Shown one piece after another: positions 1 through 10,717 of a stretch of DNA of 64,000 nucleotides. The stretch is from assembly GCF_016863515.1 (NCBI RefSeq), contig NZ_BOPA01000019.1, positions 1 through 64,000 on the forward strand. Reading direction: 5' to 3'. The DNA is from Micromonospora gifhornensis (GTDB lineage Bacteria > Actinomycetota > Actinomycetes > Mycobacteriales > Micromonosporaceae). The position numbers and the translations under genes are program-made. Within the stretch, counting starts at the first letter, position 1. Each line of letters starts with the position of its first letter. The notes beneath the pieces were generated by a model, which was given only the letters and a program-made list of their open reading frames with translations, was not told the origin of the DNA and made no database searches.

Positions 1-46
1 ATTGTTAAGCAAGAAATAGACCTGAGATTTCTGGACGGGGATTCCC

Positions 47-1459
47 ATGCGCGAAAATAACTCAAGTCGCGACTTTCAACGATTGACCTTCACCGACCGC
101 GAGATCCTGTCCACGGCCACGCACCCCGACTTCCGGGCCTGGCTGGCGCGTGTCCGGCACATCGGCGGTTGCCAACATCCCGTGCACCTGGTCGGCCACA
201 CGATGACCGTGGACGCCGCCACCGGCCGCCTGGTGCACGCGTTCACGTCGGCGGAGCAGCCGCACGGGCGGCTCACCATCGCCTGCGGCAACCGCCGCCA
301 GTCCCGCTGCGAACCGTGCGCCCGGCTGCACCAGGGCGACACGTACCAACTTGTTGTGTCGGGGCTCGCCGGCGGCAAGGGCGTCCCCGACACTGTGCGC
401 AGGCATCCGCGTGTGTTCGTGACGTTCACCGCGCCGAGCTTCGGCCCGGTCCACCGGCACACCACCGACGAGCCCTGCCGGCCGTCACGCGGTCGTCGGG
501 GCCTCGTCTGCGGTCACGGCCGGCCGTTGTGGTGCCTCGACCGGCACCCGAGCGGCGACGCGCTCACCGGCTCCCCACTGTGCCCGGAGTGCTACGACTA
601 CCCGGCCGCGGTGCTGTGGAACGCCCACACCCGCGACCTGTGGCAACGGCTGCACCGCAACCTCTACGAGGGCATCGCCACCACGCGCGGCATTTCCCGC
701 ACCGCCGCCCGCAACACGGTCCGCGTCGCCTACGCCAAGGTCGCGGAGTACCAGCGGCGCGGTTCGGTGCACTTCCACGCCGTCATGCGCTTCGACGGCC
801 CCACCCCCGACACCCCAACCCCGGCATGGGCAACCCTGCCGCTGCTGGTGCAGACCATCCGCACCGCGACGCGCCGGGTGCACCTGGCCGTGCCCGGCCT
901 CGACACCATCTTGCGGTTCGGGGCGCAGCTCGACATCCGGCCCATCCTGCCCGGTCGCGGCGGCGACGACGACTTGACCGAGCGGGCCGTGGCCTCCTAC
1001 ATCGCCAAGTACGTCACCAAGCCTGATGTCGCCGGCATCACCGTGGACCGGCCCATCCGCCACGCCATCAGCATCTCGGTGCTTCCCGTCACCGAGCACG
1101 CCCGCACCCTCATCCGCATCTGCTGGACCCTCGGCAGGCGACCCGAGTACAAGGCGCTGAACCTGCGGCGGTGGGCACACCAACTCGGCTACCGAGGCCA
1201 CATCGCCAGCAAAAGCCGCGCCTACTCCACCACCTACACCGCGCTACGCGCCGCCCGCGAACAACACCGCCGCGACCAGCACCAGGAGGACACCCACGAC
1301 GACACCCCCGACGCCATCACCGACAAACACTGGACCTACGCCGGAACCGGCCACACCGCCGGACAAGCCATGTTCGCCGACGCCATCGCAGACGACCTCC
1401 AAGCCGCCCGCGATGCCGCTCAGGACGTACGTGCGGGCGGTGACCGCGATGGGCCGTGA
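47..1459 (+). CDS. RepSA-like replication initiator protein
   Basis: A 470-residue protein resembling the replication initiators of pSAM2-type actinomycete elements, which nick and replicate the excised circle by a rolling-circle mechanism. Residues about 85-100 and 190-200 contain CxxC pairs, a probable zinc-binding region. The metal-binding HUH motif is visible as HFH in GSVHFHAV at about residue 245. The YIAKYVTK stretch at about residue 330 supplies candidate catalytic tyrosines. The C-terminus is charged and low-complexity. The start follows a weak GGGGAT and fits the family. The gene overlaps the next start by 11 bp, suggesting coupled translation. The family call rests on motifs and context. 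Confidence 0.85.
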   Translation: MRENNSSRDFQRLTFTDREILSTATHPDFRAWLARVRHIGGCQHPVHLVGHTMTVDAATGRLVHAFTSAEQPHGRLTIACGNRRQSRCEPCARLHQGDTYQLVVSGLAGGKGVPDTVRRHPRVFVTFTAPSFGPVHRHTTDEPCRPSRGRRGLVCGHGRPLWCLDRHPSGDALTGSPLCPECYDYPAAVLWNAHTRDLWQRLHRNLYEGIATTRGISRTAARNTVRVAYAKVAEYQRRGSVHFHAVMRFDGPTPDTPTPAWATLPLLVQTIRTATRRVHLAVPGLDTILRFGAQLDIRPILPGRGGDDDLTERAVASYIAKYVTKPDVAGITVDRPIRHAISISVLPVTEHARTLIRICWTLGRRPEYKALNLRRWAHQLGYRGHIASKSRAYSTTYTALRAAREQHRRDQHQEDTHDDTPDAITDKHWTYAGTGHTAGQAMFADAIADDLQAARDAAQDVRAGGDRDGP

Positions 1460-1643
1460 AACCGCACCCGCCCGCGCAAGTCGCCACCCTCGGGCTCTCC
1501 CAGGCGGCCAGACGGGCGGACGGACTCGACGCCACAACGCCGAGTACGTACGCAAGCTGCTTGACGGGTGGCCCCCGTTGACAGAGGAACAACGCTCGGC
1601 GCTCGTCCTCCTTATCCGACGATCGGATCGGCCGGCAGCATGA
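1449..1643 (+). CDS. Small element-associated protein
   Basis: A 64-residue basic protein beginning inside the end of rep. Its N-terminal half is rich in Arg, Gly and Ala. Its C-terminal half reads YVRKLLDGWPPLTEEQRSAL, a pattern I recognise in small proteins next to rep/int genes of actinomycete elements. Function unknown; no helix-turn-helix like that of an excisionase is evident. A start 36 bp upstream at 1413 is possible but would lengthen the overlap with rep. The stop codon lies inside the left arm of the terminator hairpin at 1631-1671. Confidence 0.6.
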   Translation: MGRETAPARASRHPRALPGGQTGGRTRRHNAEYVRKLLDGWPPLTEEQRSALVLLIRRSDRPAA

Positions 1644-1671
1644 CAAGCCGATCACTCGTCATGCTGCCGGC
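1631..1671. terminator. Bidirectional hairpin between rep and int
   Basis: A perfect 14-bp inverted repeat (GCCGGCAGCATGAC at 1631-1644, its complement at 1658-1671) with a 13-nt loop. It lies between the ends of two convergent genes and covers the stop codon of the small gene. No T-run follows, as is common in high-GC actinobacteria. A recombination or regulatory role is not excluded. Confidence 0.7.
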
Positions 1672-1676
1672 GGTCG

Positions 1677-3095
1677 TCAGCTCGCCCGACGCGCCGAATC
1701 CTTCGGCGTGATTCTCACCGTCTCGGGGTCGAACCCCTTGCGCCCCCGAACGGCGGGAAGGATGGTGACGTCCATGAGCGTGCCGATGATCTCGCGGCGT
1801 TGGTCGTTGGTCACCTCGTCGGAGTACCACCACTCCCGCACGTTCGGGGCGGCAACAGCCGGGCCGAGGACGTCAACGCGGCCCGCATCGGCCATTTTCG
1901 CCTCGATCTCGGCAATATCTGCCTCGGCTGCCTCGGTGCCAGCGAGCATCGTTGACCTCGGAATGCGTTTCTTGGCGTAGTCGATCCCGAGTTGCTTGAG
2001 CAGAACGCGGCTCGCCTCCAACTCCTCACGCAGCGCGTCCACGTCCGGGCGATCGTGGTCGACCAGCAGATCAGCCCCGTCACGCTCGATGATGGCGATC
2101 ACGACATCACTCACCAGCTCGTCCACGGGCTCAACCGCCCGGCTGACATGCTTACCCGTGCGGCACGTGTAGTTCTTCGCCCCGGTCTTCGACTGGCCGC
2201 TCATGTTGACCGTCTCACCGCAGACACCACAACGGGCCAGCCCGGTATTCATCCCCTTGGCGGACTTACCGGTCCTCTTGCGAGATGGGTTCTCCAAGAT
2301 CGCCTTGACCGCCCGCCATGTCGCCTCGTCCACCAGGGCCGGCCAGGCTGCCTTGGTGACCACCTCGCCCCGGTGCGAGCGCAGACCGGCGTTACGTGGG
2401 CTGGTGAGCCACTTGCGCAGCGTCTCCGTCCGCCACAGGTTTCCCTGCCCGGTTCGCAGCCCGGCATCGTTCAACATGCGAACCTGCGCCGCGAGCTTGC
2501 CCTTGGCGAGAATTGCCCGATAGACCGCCTCCGCCGCCTTGGCCTCCGCTTCGCGCTTCGTCACGCGGTCAGGCTCGTAGCCGAACGGCCGGGGACCGGG
2601 GGCCGGGCGTCCCTTCTCGGCGTGCTGGCGGTTCGCCCGCTTCTGGCGCTCCGACTTCAACTCCGTCTCGTACCGCGCGTCACTCGCCGCGTTGTCGAAG
2701 AATTTGCGCCCCTGCGGAGTCGAGAGGTCGAAGGTCATCCCGCGAGCGTAAGAGACGATCACCGGCTGAGGTGCGGCAAGACACGTCTCGTAGAACCGAT
2801 ATTCGTCGGTCTTCGTCTTCAGCAGCCGCTCGCTCGACCACGCGATAACCACGTTGATCTCACCGGCGGCAATGAGCTTCAGCAGCTTCTCGAAGCCGGG
2901 CCGCCGACGCATCGCGGACTTGTCGTTGTCAACAAGCCGATGCGCTACCGGCCACCGGTTGTACTCCGCGTGGCCATCGCAGTCCTCACCCTGCCGGGCG
3001 ATGCCCTCGCCCTCGCGGCTCGTGCCCTTGTGCGGGTCGTCGGAGAGGCGGAGACAGATCGCGGCTCGCCGGTCCTGGCTGCTCAGCAACGTCAT
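1677..3095 (-). CDS. int: Serine recombinase (integrase) of the element
   Basis: A 472-residue large serine recombinase that would catalyse integration and, with a directionality factor, excision. The resolvase domain comes first, with the presumed nucleophile Ser18 in ICLRLSDD and the conserved AWSSERLL segment near residue 88. A recombinase domain follows at about 155-275. A zinc-ribbon has CGVCGE (about 295) and a later YTCRTGKHV, then a coiled-coil-like Glu/Leu-rich stretch (about 355-405). The length is typical of the shorter large serine recombinases. It is convergent with rep. The ATG at 3095 has no Shine-Dalgarno. Its upstream region crosses the attachment junction, so its promoter would change when the element excises. 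Confidence 0.92.
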   Translation of the reverse strand: MTLLSSQDRRAAICLRLSDDPHKGTSREGEGIARQGEDCDGHAEYNRWPVAHRLVDNDKSAMRRRPGFEKLLKLIAAGEINVVIAWSSERLLKTKTDEYRFYETCLAAPQPVIVSYARGMTFDLSTPQGRKFFDNAASDARYETELKSERQKRANRQHAEKGRPAPGPRPFGYEPDRVTKREAEAKAAEAVYRAILAKGKLAAQVRMLNDAGLRTGQGNLWRTETLRKWLTSPRNAGLRSHRGEVVTKAAWPALVDEATWRAVKAILENPSRKRTGKSAKGMNTGLARCGVCGETVNMSGQSKTGAKNYTCRTGKHVSRAVEPVDELVSDVVIAIIERDGADLLVDHDRPDVDALREELEASRVLLKQLGIDYAKKRIPRSTMLAGTEAAEADIAEIEAKMADAGRVDVLGPAVAAPNVREWWYSDEVTNDQRREIIGTLMDVTILPAVRGRKGFDPETVRITPKDSARRAS

Positions 3096-3105
3096 GCATC
3101 AATAC

Positions 3106-3120
3106 TAGCAAGATCATACC
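3106..3120. other. Attachment-site junction of the integrated element
   Basis: Reading upstream in the frame of the methyltransferase remnant, similarity to the family appears to begin near 3118 (codons Thr-His-Pro-Met-Arg-Trp), while an in-frame TAG sits at 3106-3108. Crossover should therefore lie within this short interval. Serine integrases use very short common cores, so the exact base cannot be set without the other end of the element or an empty site. Confidence 0.55.
3113..3118 (-). promoter_or_regulatory. Possible -10 element for the integrase at the junction
   Basis: On the minus strand the sequence reads TATGAT, a near-perfect -10 hexamer, 17 nt before the integrase ATG. Any -35 would lie in the chromosomal methyltransferase remnant (about 3136-3141) and is not convincing. 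Position and match are seen directly; promoter activity is inferred. Confidence 0.35.
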
Positions 3121-3426
3121 CACCCGATGCGCTGGGTCTTCCTGGACGACCCGGGCGAGGGGGGTCTGCTGGCGGTGCACTCCTACTTCGACCGCCGTCC
3201 GTACATCGAACAGGATGCGACGGGGGTGCCCACCTACATCGAGGCGCACCGTACCTTCGGCGATCGGATCCGGGAGTTGACCGCCGCCGGTTTCGTCCTG
3301 CGTGACGTGATCGAGCCGGAGTGGCCGCCCGGGCACGAGCAGATCTGGGGCCAGTGGAGCCCGCTGCGCGGGCGGCTGTTTCCCGGTACCGCCATCTTCG
3401 TGGCCCAGCGGCCGACCACCGGGTGA
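3118..3426 (+). pseudogene. C-terminal remnant of a SAM-dependent methyltransferase
   Basis: About 100 codons encode the C-terminal part of a class I SAM-dependent methyltransferase: THPMRWVF, a Tyr-Phe-Arg substrate-side strand, a heptad-like HRTFGDRIRELTAAGF helix, and WGQWSPLRGRLFPGTAIFVA at the end. The glycine-rich SAM-binding half is absent and the frame is closed upstream by TAG at 3106. An ATG at 3127 exists but has no ribosome-binding site. The 5' part should lie at the other end of the element, left of the window. Its place just before rpsA matches my recollection of a methyltransferase gene there in related genomes. Confidence 0.8.
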
Positions 3427-3620
3427 TCCGATCCGTGCGTGCCGATCGCGCACGGGGACGCGGCCGGGCCCGGCGGGTGATCCGGCCCACGCCGGACGGG
3501 GACACCGCGTCGCTGGCGTGGGGGCGTGGCTGGTGGGAGCCAGCGGGAAGGGCGGAGAAGGCACCTCTGGTCGAAATCTCCGCTTTCGCGGGTGGTGCGG
3601 TGATGAGGAGACGGGAGGGC

Positions 3621-3651
3621 TTGCACGCTGTGGTAATGCAGCGGGTAGGGT
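3621..3651 (+). promoter_or_regulatory. Putative rpsA promoter
   Basis: TTGCAC (3621-3626) and TAGGGT (3646-3651) form a housekeeping-type promoter with a slightly long 19-bp spacer. The implied 5' leader of about 170 nt before rpsA could hold autoregulatory structure, but I see no clear motif. The rest of the 3427-3828 gap shows no supportable gene. Confidence 0.4.
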
Positions 3652-3828
3652 AGAGGATGCGCTCGCGGATCGTGTGCCTCGGCAGGGAGCAGGTGCGCGG
3701 TCGACGGAGTCACATCAAGATCTCGTTCAGCGATTTTTGGGTGGGCCCGCCGGCGGATCCGTTGGCGCGCACAGGTCACCGCGACACCAGCCTGCTGTGA
3801 CACACATCCGACCGGAGCAACCGCCCAC

Positions 3829-5316
3829 ATGACGAGCAGCATCGAGGCCCCCTCGAGCGCCACCAAGGTCACCATCGACGATATCGGCTCTGAGGAAGCT
3901 TTCCTCGCCGCGATCGACGAGACCATCAAGTACTTCAACGACGGCGACATTGTCGAAGGCACCGTCGTCAAGGTCGACCGGGACGAGGTCCTGCTCGACA
4001 TCGGCTACAAGACCGAGGGTGTCATCCCCTCTCGTGAGTTGTCGATCAAGCACGATGTGGACCCGGCAGAGGTCGTCTCGGTCGGTGACCACATCGAGGC
4101 CCTGGTCCTCCAGAAGGAGGACAAGGAGGGGCGGCTGATCCTCTCCAAGAAGCGGGCGCAGTACGAGCGGGCCTGGGGCACGATCGAAAAGATCAAGGAC
4201 GAGGACGGCGTCGTCCGCGGTTCGGTCATCGAGGTGGTCAAGGGTGGCCTCATCCTCGACATCGGGCTGCGTGGCTTCCTGCCGGCCTCGCTGGTCGAGA
4301 TGCGGCGGGTGCGCGACCTGCAGCCGTACGTCGGCCGCGAGCTCGAAGCCAAGATCATCGAGCTGGACAAGAACCGCAACAACGTGGTTCTGTCCCGCCG
4401 GGCGTGGCTGGAGCAGACGCAGTCCGAGGTGCGCACCGAGTTCCTCAACAAGCTCCAGAAGGGGCAGGTCCGCAAGGGCGTCGTCTCCTCGATCGTCAAC
4501 TTCGGCGCGTTCGTCGACCTGGGCGGCGTGGACGGCCTGGTGCACGTCTCCGAGCTGTCCTGGAAGCACATCGACCACCCGTCCGAGGTCGTCGAGGTGG
4601 GCCAGGAGGTCGAGGTCGAGGTCCTGGACGTCGACCTGGACCGCGAGCGGGTCTCGCTGTCGCTGAAGGCGACCCAGGAGGACCCGTGGCGGCAGTTCGC
4701 CCGCACCCACGCGATCCAGCAGATCGTGCCGGGTAAGGTCACCAAGCTGGTGCCGTTCGGTGCGTTCGTCCGGGTGGACGACGGCATCGAGGGCCTGGTC
4801 CACATCTCCGAGCTGGCCGAGCGTCACGTGGAGATCCCGGAGCAGGTCGTCCAGGTCGGCTCCGAGGTCATGGTCAAGGTCATCGACATCGACCTGGAGC
4901 GCCGCCGGATCTCGCTGTCGCTCAAGCAGGCCAACGAGGGCTTCGTCGAGGGCGAGGAGCACTTCGACCCGACCCTCTACGGCATGGCCGCGACCTACGA
5001 CACCGAGGGCAACTACATCTACCCGGAGGGCTTCGACCCGGAGACGGGCGAGTGGCTCGAGGGGTACGACAAGCAGCGCGAGACCTGGGAGAACCAGTAC
5101 GCCGAGGCGCGGCAGCGCTGGGAGGCGCACCAGAAGCAGGTGCAGACCTCTCGGGCCGCCGAGGCCGAGGCCGCTGCCAACCCGCAGCCTGCGCCCACCG
5201 GCACCACCACCACGACCAGCGCGGCCCCCAGCCGCCAGGCCGAGGAGCCCGCTGGCACGCTGGCCACCGACGAGGCGCTCGCCGCTCTGCGCGAGAAGCT
5301 CGCCGGCGGTAAGTGA
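3829..5316 (+). CDS. rpsA: 30S ribosomal protein S1
   Basis: A 495-residue bS1 protein that tethers mRNA to the small ribosomal subunit. Four S1 RNA-binding domains can be read, at about residues 40-108, 125-190, 210-280 and 297-365, each with the Gly-x-Val...Gly-Phe/Leu...Leu-Val-His pattern (GLVHVSELSW, GLVHISELAE). Four domains is the usual actinobacterial number. After residue 380 comes an acidic/aromatic segment and then an Ala/Thr/Pro/Ser-rich tail, likely disordered. Start ATG with GGAG 11 nt upstream. It is monocistronic in appearance, followed by a strong hairpin. Confidence 0.97.
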   Translation: MTSSIEAPSSATKVTIDDIGSEEAFLAAIDETIKYFNDGDIVEGTVVKVDRDEVLLDIGYKTEGVIPSRELSIKHDVDPAEVVSVGDHIEALVLQKEDKEGRLILSKKRAQYERAWGTIEKIKDEDGVVRGSVIEVVKGGLILDIGLRGFLPASLVEMRRVRDLQPYVGRELEAKIIELDKNRNNVVLSRRAWLEQTQSEVRTEFLNKLQKGQVRKGVVSSIVNFGAFVDLGGVDGLVHVSELSWKHIDHPSEVVEVGQEVEVEVLDVDLDRERVSLSLKATQEDPWRQFARTHAIQQIVPGKVTKLVPFGAFVRVDDGIEGLVHISELAERHVEIPEQVVQVGSEVMVKVIDIDLERRRISLSLKQANEGFVEGEEHFDPTLYGMAATYDTEGNYIYPEGFDPETGEWLEGYDKQRETWENQYAEARQRWEAHQKQVQTSRAAEAEAAANPQPAPTGTTTTTSAAPSRQAEEPAGTLATDEALAALREKLAGGK

Positions 5317-6708: not shown

Positions 6709-8346
6709 TCAACGAGCCTTGGCCGGCCTGGTCAACGGGGGCACCCGGCCGGGTGTCAGGTCGAGTTGGGCCCAGGCGCCGGCCCTGCTCGGCAGCTCCA
6801 ACCGGCGCAGCAGGCCGGACCGGTCGATCCAGTAACGGGTCCGGCCGGCCCCGGTGCCGACCTCGATGACGTCGACCACGGTGCCGGCGAGGTTGTCGCC
6901 GCGTACCCGGTGCGGGCTGCCGGTCGGACCACCGCTGCGGGCGGCGCGCAGCGCCCGCGCCACGAGTGGGTCCAGCGCGTCGGTGCGGTGCGCGCCGGCC
7001 CGCCATCCGGTGGCCGGTGGTGGCAGCGGCGGCGGACCCGCCGGGTCGCCCGACGCCGACGCGTCGATCCGGGTGACGCCGGTGCCGTCCCGGCGGACCA
7101 GGGTGCGGGGGGAATCGGGGTTGTCCAGGTCGGTGACGCCGAGGTAGGCGGTGCCCGAGGTCCAGCTCAACCAGCCGGTGCCGCGCAGATTGGCGTCGGC
7201 CGACGCGGGCAGGGTCACGGTGACGGCGGCACCACCGGCGGCCCGTAACCGGGCGGGTAGGCGCTGCCACCTGTCGCGTTCGGCGGTGGTGAGGGCGCGG
7301 GGCAGGCCGGGACGGCCGCCCAGCGCGTCGACCGGCCGCAGAGTCGGCCGATCGGTGCGGTTCAGGTGTACGGTGACCCGCCCGAGCACGGCGACCGTGG
7401 TCTCCAGCCGGTGCAGCCGTCCGGCGGTGTCCAGCCAGTAGCGGGTGGCGGCGGCCGCGTCGGTGCCCGCTGCTGCGGTGCCCGGCGGGGCGGCCTCCAG
7501 GATGTCGACGTCCTCCCCGTTTCGTCGGTCCCGACCGACCCACCGGCCGGACAGGTCGTCGGCCGGGTCGGGACGTTCGGCGCTGAGCGCGAAGATCATG
7601 GTCAGCAGCGGGGCGAGCCGTTGCTCCGCAGGGATCCGCCAGCCGTCGACCGGAGGGATCAGCGGTGGCATCGCGGGTGCCGGTACCGCGGTGGGGTCGG
7701 GCCGGGACACCAGAACGGCGGGGCTGGCCTGCGCCAGGCCACGCAGCGCGCCGGCACCGGGCCCGCCCACGTCGACGTAGACCAGTTGCCGGGACCAGTC
7801 GACCCAGCCGAGCAGGTCGGTGCGGTTCGTGCCGGCGCCGATCGTGACGTGCAACCCGGCGCGCAGGTCGCGTTGGTTGGTCACCCGCATGACCGCCAAC
7901 CGGTCCCGTTCGGCCGAGGTCATGTCACGTGCCGCGGGCTCGTCCGGGGGCCAGGTGATAAGGGTGACCACCAGCATGACGGCGGAGAGCACGGCGGTGA
8001 GCGCGAGCCCGGTCAGGGTGAGCCGACGTCGTCGGGCGGACCTCTGCCGGGCCTCGTCGGCCTCCTCGTCGGCCCCGGCGAGGTCGTCGTCGGCTGCGTC
8101 CGCGCCGGTGGGGTCGGTGGCTGCACCGAGTAGGCGGTGGGAGAGCCCGGCCCGGCGGGTGCCGGCCCGTCCGGGCAGGCCGGCGGTCGGCGAGCCGTCG
8201 AGGCCGATGCCGGCGGGGGGCCCGATGCCGGCGCGATGTCGGCGCGGGCCGGCGCGGTGCCGATTGTCGCTTCGGGCACCGGACGTCGGTCGCGAACTGT
8301 TCTCCACGGAGGGTGAACGCCTCGGACCGGGATCGGGTGACGACAT
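6709..8346 (-). CDS. Membrane-anchored protein with two extracytoplasmic repeats
   Basis: A 545-residue protein of unknown function. A charged, Pro/Arg-rich cytoplasmic N-terminus (about 1-110) precedes one hydrophobic segment (LTLTGLALTAVLSAVMLVVT, about 125-145), so most of the protein should be outside the cell. The exported part has two related units: each has a Trp-x-Asp/Ser strand, a Pro-rich turn with GW, and a TRYWLDxxGxLxRLE signature (TRYWLDTAGRLHRLE and TRYWIDRSGLLRRLE). That signature recalls lipoprotein carriers of the LppX/LprG/LolA fold, but this is inference. ATG 8346 is a reasonable but unproven start; the open frame continues upstream into uvrB, which I reject. Confidence 0.72.
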   Translation of the reverse strand: MSSPDPGPRRSPSVENSSRPTSGARSDNRHRAGPRRHRAGIGPPAGIGLDGSPTAGLPGRAGTRRAGLSHRLLGAATDPTGADAADDDLAGADEEADEARQRSARRRRLTLTGLALTAVLSAVMLVVTLITWPPDEPAARDMTSAERDRLAVMRVTNQRDLRAGLHVTIGAGTNRTDLLGWVDWSRQLVYVDVGGPGAGALRGLAQASPAVLVSRPDPTAVPAPAMPPLIPPVDGWRIPAEQRLAPLLTMIFALSAERPDPADDLSGRWVGRDRRNGEDVDILEAAPPGTAAAGTDAAAATRYWLDTAGRLHRLETTVAVLGRVTVHLNRTDRPTLRPVDALGGRPGLPRALTTAERDRWQRLPARLRAAGGAAVTVTLPASADANLRGTGWLSWTSGTAYLGVTDLDNPDSPRTLVRRDGTGVTRIDASASGDPAGPPPLPPPATGWRAGAHRTDALDPLVARALRAARSGGPTGSPHRVRGDNLAGTVVDVIEVGTGAGRTRYWIDRSGLLRRLELPSRAGAWAQLDLTPGRVPPLTRPAKAR

Positions 8347-8595
8347 AGGGGCGCTCGCGGCGGCCGGTCTGCGCGTCGTCCGCGCGACCACGTCGGGTGC
8401 GCACGCCGCAAATCCGGGTGCTGCGACCCCACAGCGCCGGCGGCGGCATGACCTGTGCGGCCCGCCACCTGCCCGGTCGGCCGCCGCGAGCGGCCTACGG
8501 GGAAAGGGTAGCCGGGTGAGAAGAACCACACAATGCGAATATTGAGGCCGGTCACGTGCGGTGCGTACTCGCCGCGGAGTGTCAGGCCCCCCGCG

Positions 8596-8601
8596 TACCG
8601 T
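8596..8601 (+). promoter_or_regulatory. -10 element of uvrB (leaderless architecture)
   Basis: TACCGT lies exactly 7 nt before ATG 8609, placing transcription start at or next to the start codon. No separate Shine-Dalgarno is needed or seen. I see no convincing LexA-type palindrome nearby. Confidence 0.5.
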
Positions 8602-8608
8602 GGATGGT

Positions 8609-10717
8609 ATGGCGCTCGACATTCCCCGGCTCGACGGTCGCTTCAAGGTCATCAGCGAGTTCCAGCCGGCCGGCGACCAGCCGGCCGCGATCGACGAGCT
8701 GGAGCGGCGGGTGCGTCGCGGCGACCGGCACACGGTGCTGCTCGGCGCGACCGGCACCGGCAAGAGCGCCACCACCGCCTGGTTGATCGAGCGGATGCAG
8801 CGCCCCACGTTGGTGCTGGCGCCCAACAAGACGCTCTGCGCGCAGCTTGCCAAGGAGTTCAGCGAGCTGCTGCCGGACAACGCGGTGGAATATTTCGTCT
8901 CCTACTACGACTACTACCAGCCCGAGGCGTACATTCCGCAGACCGACACCTACATCGAGAAGGATTCCTCGGTCAACGAGGAGGTCGAGCGGCTGCGGCA
9001 CTCGGCGACGATGTCGTTGCTGACCCGCCGCGACGTGGTGGTGGTGGCCACCGTGTCGGCGATCTACGGCCTCGGCACGCCGGAGGAATATCTCGATCGG
9101 GCGGTGCGGGTCGCCGTCGGCCAGGAGCTGGATCGCGACCAGTTGCTGCGTCGGCTCGTCGACATCCAGTACACCCGCAACGACATGGCCTTCCAGCGCG
9201 GCACGTTCCGGGTCCGCGGCGACACGCTGGAGATCATTCCCGCGTACGAGGAACTGGCCGTCCGGATCGAGCTCTTCGGTGACGAGGTGGAGAAGCTCTA
9301 CTACCTCAACCCGCTCACCGGTGACGTGGTGCGCGAGGTGGAGAACCTGCTGATCTTCCCGGCGACGCACTACGCGGCCGGGCCGCAGCGGATGGAGCGG
9401 GCGATCCGCGACATCGAGACCGAGCTGGCCGAGCGGCTGGCCGAGCTGGAGCGCCAGGGCAAGCTGCTGGAGGCGCAGCGGTTGCGGATGCGCACCACGT
9501 ACGACATCGAGATGATGCGGCAGGTCGGTTTCTGCTCCGGCATCGAGAACTACTCGATGCACATCGACGGGCGGTTGCCTGGCAGTCCGCCGCACTGCCT
9601 GCTCGACTACTTCCCCGACGACTTCCTCACCGTCATCGACGAGTCGCACGTGACCATCCCGCAGATCGGCGGCATGTACGAAGGCGACGCCTCCCGCAAG
9701 CGGATGCTCATCGACCACGGTTTCCGGCTGCCCAGCGCCGCCGACAACCGGCCGTTGCGGTTCGACGAGTTCCTGGAGCGGGTCGGTCAGATGGTGTTCC
9801 TGTCGGCGACTCCGGGGCCGTGGGAGCTGGAGCACGCCCAGGGCGAGTTCGTCGAGCAGGTGATCCGCCCGACCGGTCTGGTGGATCCGGAGGTCGTGAT
9901 CAAGCCCACCAAGGGCCAGATCGACGACCTGATGCACGAGATCAAACTGCGGACCGAGCGCGACGAGCGGGTCCTGGTCACCACGTTGACCAAGAAGATG
10001 GCCGAGGATCTGTCGGATTATCTGCTGGAGAACGGCATCCGGGTGCGTTACCTGCACTCCGAGGTCGACACGTTGCGCCGGGTGGAGCTGCTGCGGGAGC
10101 TGCGGCGGGGCGACTACGACGTGCTGGTCGGCATCAACCTGCTGCGGGAGGGTCTCGACCTGCCGGAGGTCTCGCTGGTGGCGATCCTCGACGCGGACAA
10201 GGAAGGCTTCCTGCGCAGCGGCCGGTCGCTGATCCAGACCATCGGTCGGGCGGCCCGCAACGTCTCCGGTCAGGTCCACATGTACGCCGACAAGATCACA
10301 CCGTCGATGGCGGACGCGATCGACGAGACGAACCGGCGTCGGGCCAAGCAGATCGCGCACAACGAGGCGCACGGCATCTCACCCGAGCCGCTGCGGAAAA
10401 AGATCCACGACATTCTCGACGACATCTACCGCGAGGCGGAGGACATCGAGGCGACCCGGGTGGGCGGTGCGGTGCGGCAACTGTCCCGGGGCAAGGCACC
10501 GGTGAAGGAGACCCGCAGTCGGGTCCGGGCCGGTGCCGGCACGCCTGCTCGGGAAGGCATGGCGCGGGCGGAGTTGGCGCAGCTCATCCAGGACCTCAGC
10601 GACCAGATGCTGGCCGCCGCGCGGGAGCTTCAGTTCGAGTTGGCCGCCCGGATCCGCGACGAGGTCTCGGAGCTGAAGAAGGAGCTGCGGGGGATGGACG
10701 CGGCCGGCGTGCGGTGA
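8609..10717 (+). CDS. uvrB: Excinuclease ABC subunit UvrB
   Basis: A 702-residue DNA helicase-like subunit of nucleotide excision repair, which verifies damage handed over by UvrA and recruits UvrC. Walker A is GATGTGKS (46-53). The beta-hairpin region with [12 protein letters not shown] follows near 100. DESH (Walker B) appears in [14 protein letters not shown] (about 350), and helicase motif VI in the [10 protein letters not shown] segment (about 555). A C-terminal UVR motif ([20 protein letters not shown], about 670-690) is the UvrC contact. Length is normal. ATG 8609 is chosen over an upstream in-frame ATG (8561) because family similarity starts here and a -10 motif sits 7 nt before it. 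Confidence 0.97.

Follow-up and report, generated by a model that had tools for sequence, protein, structure and literature searches.

The elements closest to the one described here are the actinomycete integrative and conjugative elements (AICEs) of the pSAM2 type, with which it has in common a RepSA-type Rep, an FtsK/SpoIIIE-type transfer protein and an integrase at one end. In the consulted sections of Ghinet et al. (2011, PMC3218068), the majority of AICEs combine tyrosine integrases with tRNA genes, and 19 of 144 use serine recombinases, some of them located in protein-coding genes; unlike the present element, the AICEs are not mentioned in those sections as carrying a copy of the target gene. 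Insertion at a specific site within a methyltransferase gene is likewise known from serine-integrase IMEs and ICEs, which disrupt rumA, for example, and the genes broken by them are described, in the part of PMC5704250 considered here, as dispensable and simply broken, whereas the present element travels with a complete substitute. No description of a carried full-length copy of the target gene was found among the open-access papers searched, at the level of titles and abstract openings.

Integrating elements are usually taken either to insert into dispensable genes or to leave their target unharmed through the use of tRNA genes or gene ends; a third way is indicated here, in which the gene is cut and a whole substitute is supplied. 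Restoration of the end of the target gene is known from e14 in icd, SXT in prfC and pSAM2 in a tRNA gene. The present element likewise carries target sequence that would make up for the damage, but those three restore one end by fusion, whereas here the two pieces are left unjoined and the full-length gene comes as a separate unit. In engineered cleave-and-rescue gene drives, the resident gene is destroyed and a diverged version is supplied for its rescue, and destruction of a gene together with carriage of a diverged version is found here as well; in contrast to those drives, neither a nuclease nor biased inheritance is shown here, and spread would be by integration of a mobile element.

The window, that is, the whole 64-kb stretch analysed, is the beginning of contig C19 of a 6.8-Mb genome in 113 contigs (G000). 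The frame at 3118–3426 (+) is the C-terminal third of a split resident class I SAM methyltransferase gene, codirectional with rpsA (3829–5316, +; S1 domains), the host flank used as reference for gene orientation. A reading made from the window alone (the sequence-only reading) had described it as a headless methyltransferase C-terminus with a TAG three codons ahead, and this was borne out: the TAG lies at 3106–3108, followed by CAA GAT CAT, the similarity begins at 3118, and the frame is open down to the TGA at 3424–3426. Related genomes provided the uninterrupted gene that had been proposed as a comparison; among the best 80 of 440 loci, identity to 3118–3426 is 75–90%, and in 80/80 the frame is open for a further 91 to 936 codons upstream, into the N-terminal part, the minimum of 91 codons being a locus where the contig ends. 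Since the N-terminal part is present upstream in all 80, the remnant in the window is truly headless.

The missing N-terminal half, which had been expected at the other end of the element, was found at C4:2304–2830 (+) in a whole-genome search with the methyltransferase L007. It ends in ACCCACCCGAT (C4:2820–2830), the same 11 bp that open the remnant in the window (3118–3128), and the two halves joined at this attR core give one intact protein, in frame and without stops. The likely crossover dinucleotide is AT at 3127–3128, at the dyad centre of the rejoined attP, and the attP arm GCAAGATCATA at 3108–3118 forms an inverted repeat with TATGATCTTGC at the opposite end of the element, on C4. The rejoined attP is an imperfect palindrome centred on this AT, with 17 of 24 pairs matching in G000 and 18 of 24 in the related element of G288, against 9 and 10 at the next best centres; the dyad of a further related element, in G192, is weaker (13 versus 11 at the next best centre). 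A short common core and an attP inverted repeat, as expected for a serine integrase, are thus both present. An AT-centred attP would permit integration in both orientations; a palindromic crossover dinucleotide with integration in both orientations is unusual for serine integrases. A tRNA gene as attachment site was considered and ruled out, ARAGORN having reported zero tRNA genes within the 64-kb window.

The integrase adjoins the remnant, as had been noted, with a gap of 22 bp. It is a large serine integrase of 472 aa (1677–3095, −) with a Resolvase N-terminal domain (Pfam, 1.3e-16) and a Recombinase domain (1.1e-12), and it is accompanied by a RepSA-type replication initiator of 470 aa (47–1459, +; Pfam RepSA 3.5e-144), whose NCBIfam RepSA score of 451 bits stays below the equivalog cut-off of 700 bits. 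The earlier view of a serine-integrase element with a pSAM2-type Rep inside a methyltransferase gene is in agreement with these domains. Positions 1–3117 form the integrase-side end of the element; by comparison with the collinear elements of G288 and G277, the remainder is placed on C75:1–14430 and C4:2831–5659, so that the total would be about 20.4 kb (2,829 + 14,430 + 3,118 bp), provided that these contigs are truly linked. The position of C75 between C4 and C19 is an inferred one, the C4–C75–C19 link resting on synteny rather than on reads. The element encodes an NsdA-family regulator, a TrmO-like protein, an HTH protein, two Mur ligases, a DDE transposase and an FtsK/SpoIIIE-type protein, and this predicted content is the gene set of an AICE: a RepSA replication protein, a site-specific integrase with att sites, and an FtsK/SpoIIIE-type Tra at C75:11497–12993 (PF01580, 1.2e-26; G288 homologue 6.5e-26). 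With two stops crossed by the alignment and a frame of 499 aa in G000 versus 590 aa in G288, the Tra protein may be shortened or damaged in G000. The Mur ligase-family pair, an unusual cargo, lies at C75 (L176):1916–3358 and 3368–4771 in G000 and at L121:6129–7853 and 7863–9266 in G288, and a DNA match covers the same stretch in G277.

Directly beyond the N-terminal half, inside the element and inverted, lies a complete second methyltransferase gene (C4:2920–3744, −; 274 aa) with methyltransferase domains. Its best match among solved structures is the uncharacterised methyltransferase 3bkw (4e-14), and its product shares 83% identity with the L007 protein over 286 aa. A TrmO-like protein (PF01980) is encoded beside it, at C4 (L100):3877–4569. 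The sequence-only reading held that the host had probably lost the enzyme unless the other end of the element restored a frame. At the junction itself no frame is restored: the N-terminal half reads on into Ile-Lys-Trp-Ile-stop within the element, and because it stops there and the C-terminal half has a stop upstream, neither attL nor attR holds a complete target frame made by fusion. The complete frame is separate, beside the junction, and a complete copy is likewise found in all four related elements; the supposed loss is not supported.

Among the five element copies, dN/dS is 0.079–0.150 in 10/10 pairs, at dN of 0.04–0.13. In resident genes, a TAnnnT box stands 5–8 nt ahead of an in-frame start in 75 of 79 cases, against 0.6% in shuffles, a placement that resembles that of leaderless promoters. 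The box is retained in four of the five carried copies; the G000 copy is without it and starts with TTG, which is the chief reason to question rescue in this strain. A strong hairpin (z −5.8) lies directly upstream of the G000 copy, at C4 (L100):3779–3820. Searches for a phage source of the carried copy gave 25 records, all below 60% identity and none covering 80% of the query; the best match in a search for a plasmid source was 60.6% identical, and IMG/VR scans with the carried copy and with the integrase yielded no relatives. In G220 (L185, C20:7716–8015), a broken fragment of a carried-type methyltransferase (83% over 94 aa), followed by transposase-like sequence, occupies a second place in a genome whose native gene is intact, and it is read as a relic of another element.

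Among 354 family genomes, that of the window included, only two others hold an integrase about 90% identical, G288 (93%) and G192 (89%, frameshifted), the next matches being about 45% or less. Both elements break the same gene at the same core, their split genes rejoin in frame without stops, and in both the full copy sits at the far end from the integrase; the G192 element as a whole is reversed, with its integrase end at the N-terminal half and its copy end at the C-terminal half. Two decayed elements were also found (G277, G287), in which no integrase and no Rep was detected over the 40 kb read; their carried copies are open, with the native N-terminal half next to each, and of the native C-terminal half the last 30 codons remain in G277 and none was found in G287. 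The complete copy is separate and inverted in G000, G288, G277 and G287. A copy is thus present in 5/5 elements found at this site, which, the elements being related, do not amount to five independent observations. In an evenly drawn sample of 397 genomes of the wider order, only integrase matches of about 40–46% were found besides G000, with G288 and G192 absent among the matches listed; at 21 loci with less related integrases, one of which (L116) is part of the G192 integrase, no methyltransferase fragment was found in short flanks. In G201, G318 and G320, which have two partial methyltransferase matches each, the matches stem from broken contigs or from frameshifts that lie away from the core, and G260 has a single partial match.

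The orientation of the resident gene was compared at 105 loci (the best 80 of 440 plus 25 from the best 30 of the family-genome matches), of which 91 remained after 12 duplicates and two loci without rpsA had been left out. All 80 residents with less than 82% identity to the carried copy are divergent from rpsA, whereas the 11 distinct residents with at least 82% identity are all codirectional with it, that is, inverted in place. The cut gene of the window is also codirectional, an arrangement beyond what the window alone could reveal: the gene belongs to the carried-copy lineage and has the reverse of the usual orientation at rpsA. In a 93-row protein tree, a branch supported at 100 separates the five carried copies, together with ten inverted residents that include the G000 split gene, from the rest, and the same grouping was obtained in a slower tree of 37 rows (support 100/100). 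These trees do not place the G000 resident under any particular element copy; its carried copy and its resident lineage differ. On a host tree of rpsA and coaE (both present in 71 of the 91 rows), the inverted state needs five changes, four of which are forced by well supported branches; with three long rows (G341, L044, L057) dropped, four changes are needed, and a single clade is rejected (p-AU 7.9e-7). These counts suggest about four or five replacements of the native gene by the carried version.

Behind the inverted resident gene of G341 and of G259, a fossil attL was found in which copy, attP half and native N-terminal half follow one another (local scores 79 and 74 versus shuffled maxima of 34 and 33); nine inverted residents were tested in all, and the remaining seven gave scores no higher than those of shuffles. 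For these seven, lineage, orientation and GC3 are the grounds on which the same route is inferred. The GC3 of the element copies is 0.69–0.77, that of the two fossil-bearing residents 0.74 and that of the other inverted residents 0.79–0.91; the 78 native-lineage genes have a median of 0.945, with two below 0.85. We read this series as one of invasion, decay and amelioration.

From the split gene and its in-frame join, the carried copies, the decay stages and the inverted residents of carried lineage, all documented in the genomes compared, it is probable that an AICE-like element cuts its target yet supplies a diverged full substitute, which has repeatedly become the resident gene. The serine integrase would put the element into the conserved methyltransferase gene next to rpsA, splitting it, while a complete diverged version would arrive just inside the attachment end; because of this version the cell would not be left without the enzyme. 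With an intact element, excision would reconstitute the split gene exactly. Loss of the integrase would leave the two gene pieces free to decay, and the carried version would become the resident, usually recognisable afterwards by its inverted position beside rpsA. Since the G000 split gene would itself be an inherited carried version, the locus would have been invaded at least twice. Expression of the carried copy and supply of the function by it are presumed in this scheme, as is the order of events.

Several other explanations were weighed. The second methyltransferase could be ordinary cargo without a rescue role, picked up long ago by imprecise excision at this site; the home of the copy adjoins the attachment site, as such an event would leave it, the element holds other enzymes such as the Mur ligase pair, and the start box is missing in G000. 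We regard this as unlikely, because the copy is kept at the same end in 5/5 elements with dN/dS near 0.1, outlasts integrase and Rep in both decayed elements and, in 11 distinct cases, is the version found as sole resident gene; imprecise excision may nevertheless be how the carried copy originated. That the host simply lost its methyltransferase would agree with a resident gene in two unfused pieces and with the 32 of 354 family genomes in which no methyltransferase match was found at 1e-30, but the full open copy on the same element, so similar to the L007 protein, makes this very improbable. Loss of the enzyme may still be tolerable, given those 32 genomes. In one genus (group g16), at least 20 genomes (G110–G129) are without a match at that threshold, and the gene can therefore be absent.

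Local inversion of the native gene, with no element involved, was considered as the origin of the inverted residents, the palindromic AT at the attP centre and the opposite orientation of the G192 element making flipping at these sites possible. It is the least credible of these alternatives, since the inverted residents belong by tree to the carried-copy lineage and have lowered GC3, two of them retain the fossil junction, and no inverted native-lineage gene occurs among the 80 native-type genes examined. Under the preferred reading, in which the element cuts the gene and brings its substitute, gene replacement at a fixed chromosomal site becomes traceable, with intermediate stages still in living genomes, and it is predicted that other core genes found inverted, with low GC3 and discordant trees, would be remnants left by elements of this kind.

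The attB core is altered in all five carried copies and in 19 of the 78 natives, and it is intact in the three split residents and in the other 59 natives, the split genes of G288 and G192 being counted among the natives. Self-sparing of the carried gene by its altered core is possible. Recoding of attB beyond the gene-wide level was not found, the attB window ranking only 20th of 230 windows for synonymous change. A wider proposal, on which we are evenly balanced, is that the element would spread through disruption of a conserved gene, with a diverged, self-sparing version on board; that serial invasion and decay would replace the native gene across the genus; and that host-ward codon drift (for example ACT to ACC) would regenerate the target, the locus in the window having passed through at least two rounds. 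The residents of five small genomes, G297, G204, G180, G209 and G292, have Leu in place of Met at the attB centre, with loss of the AT, and these five genes may be immune to this integrase.
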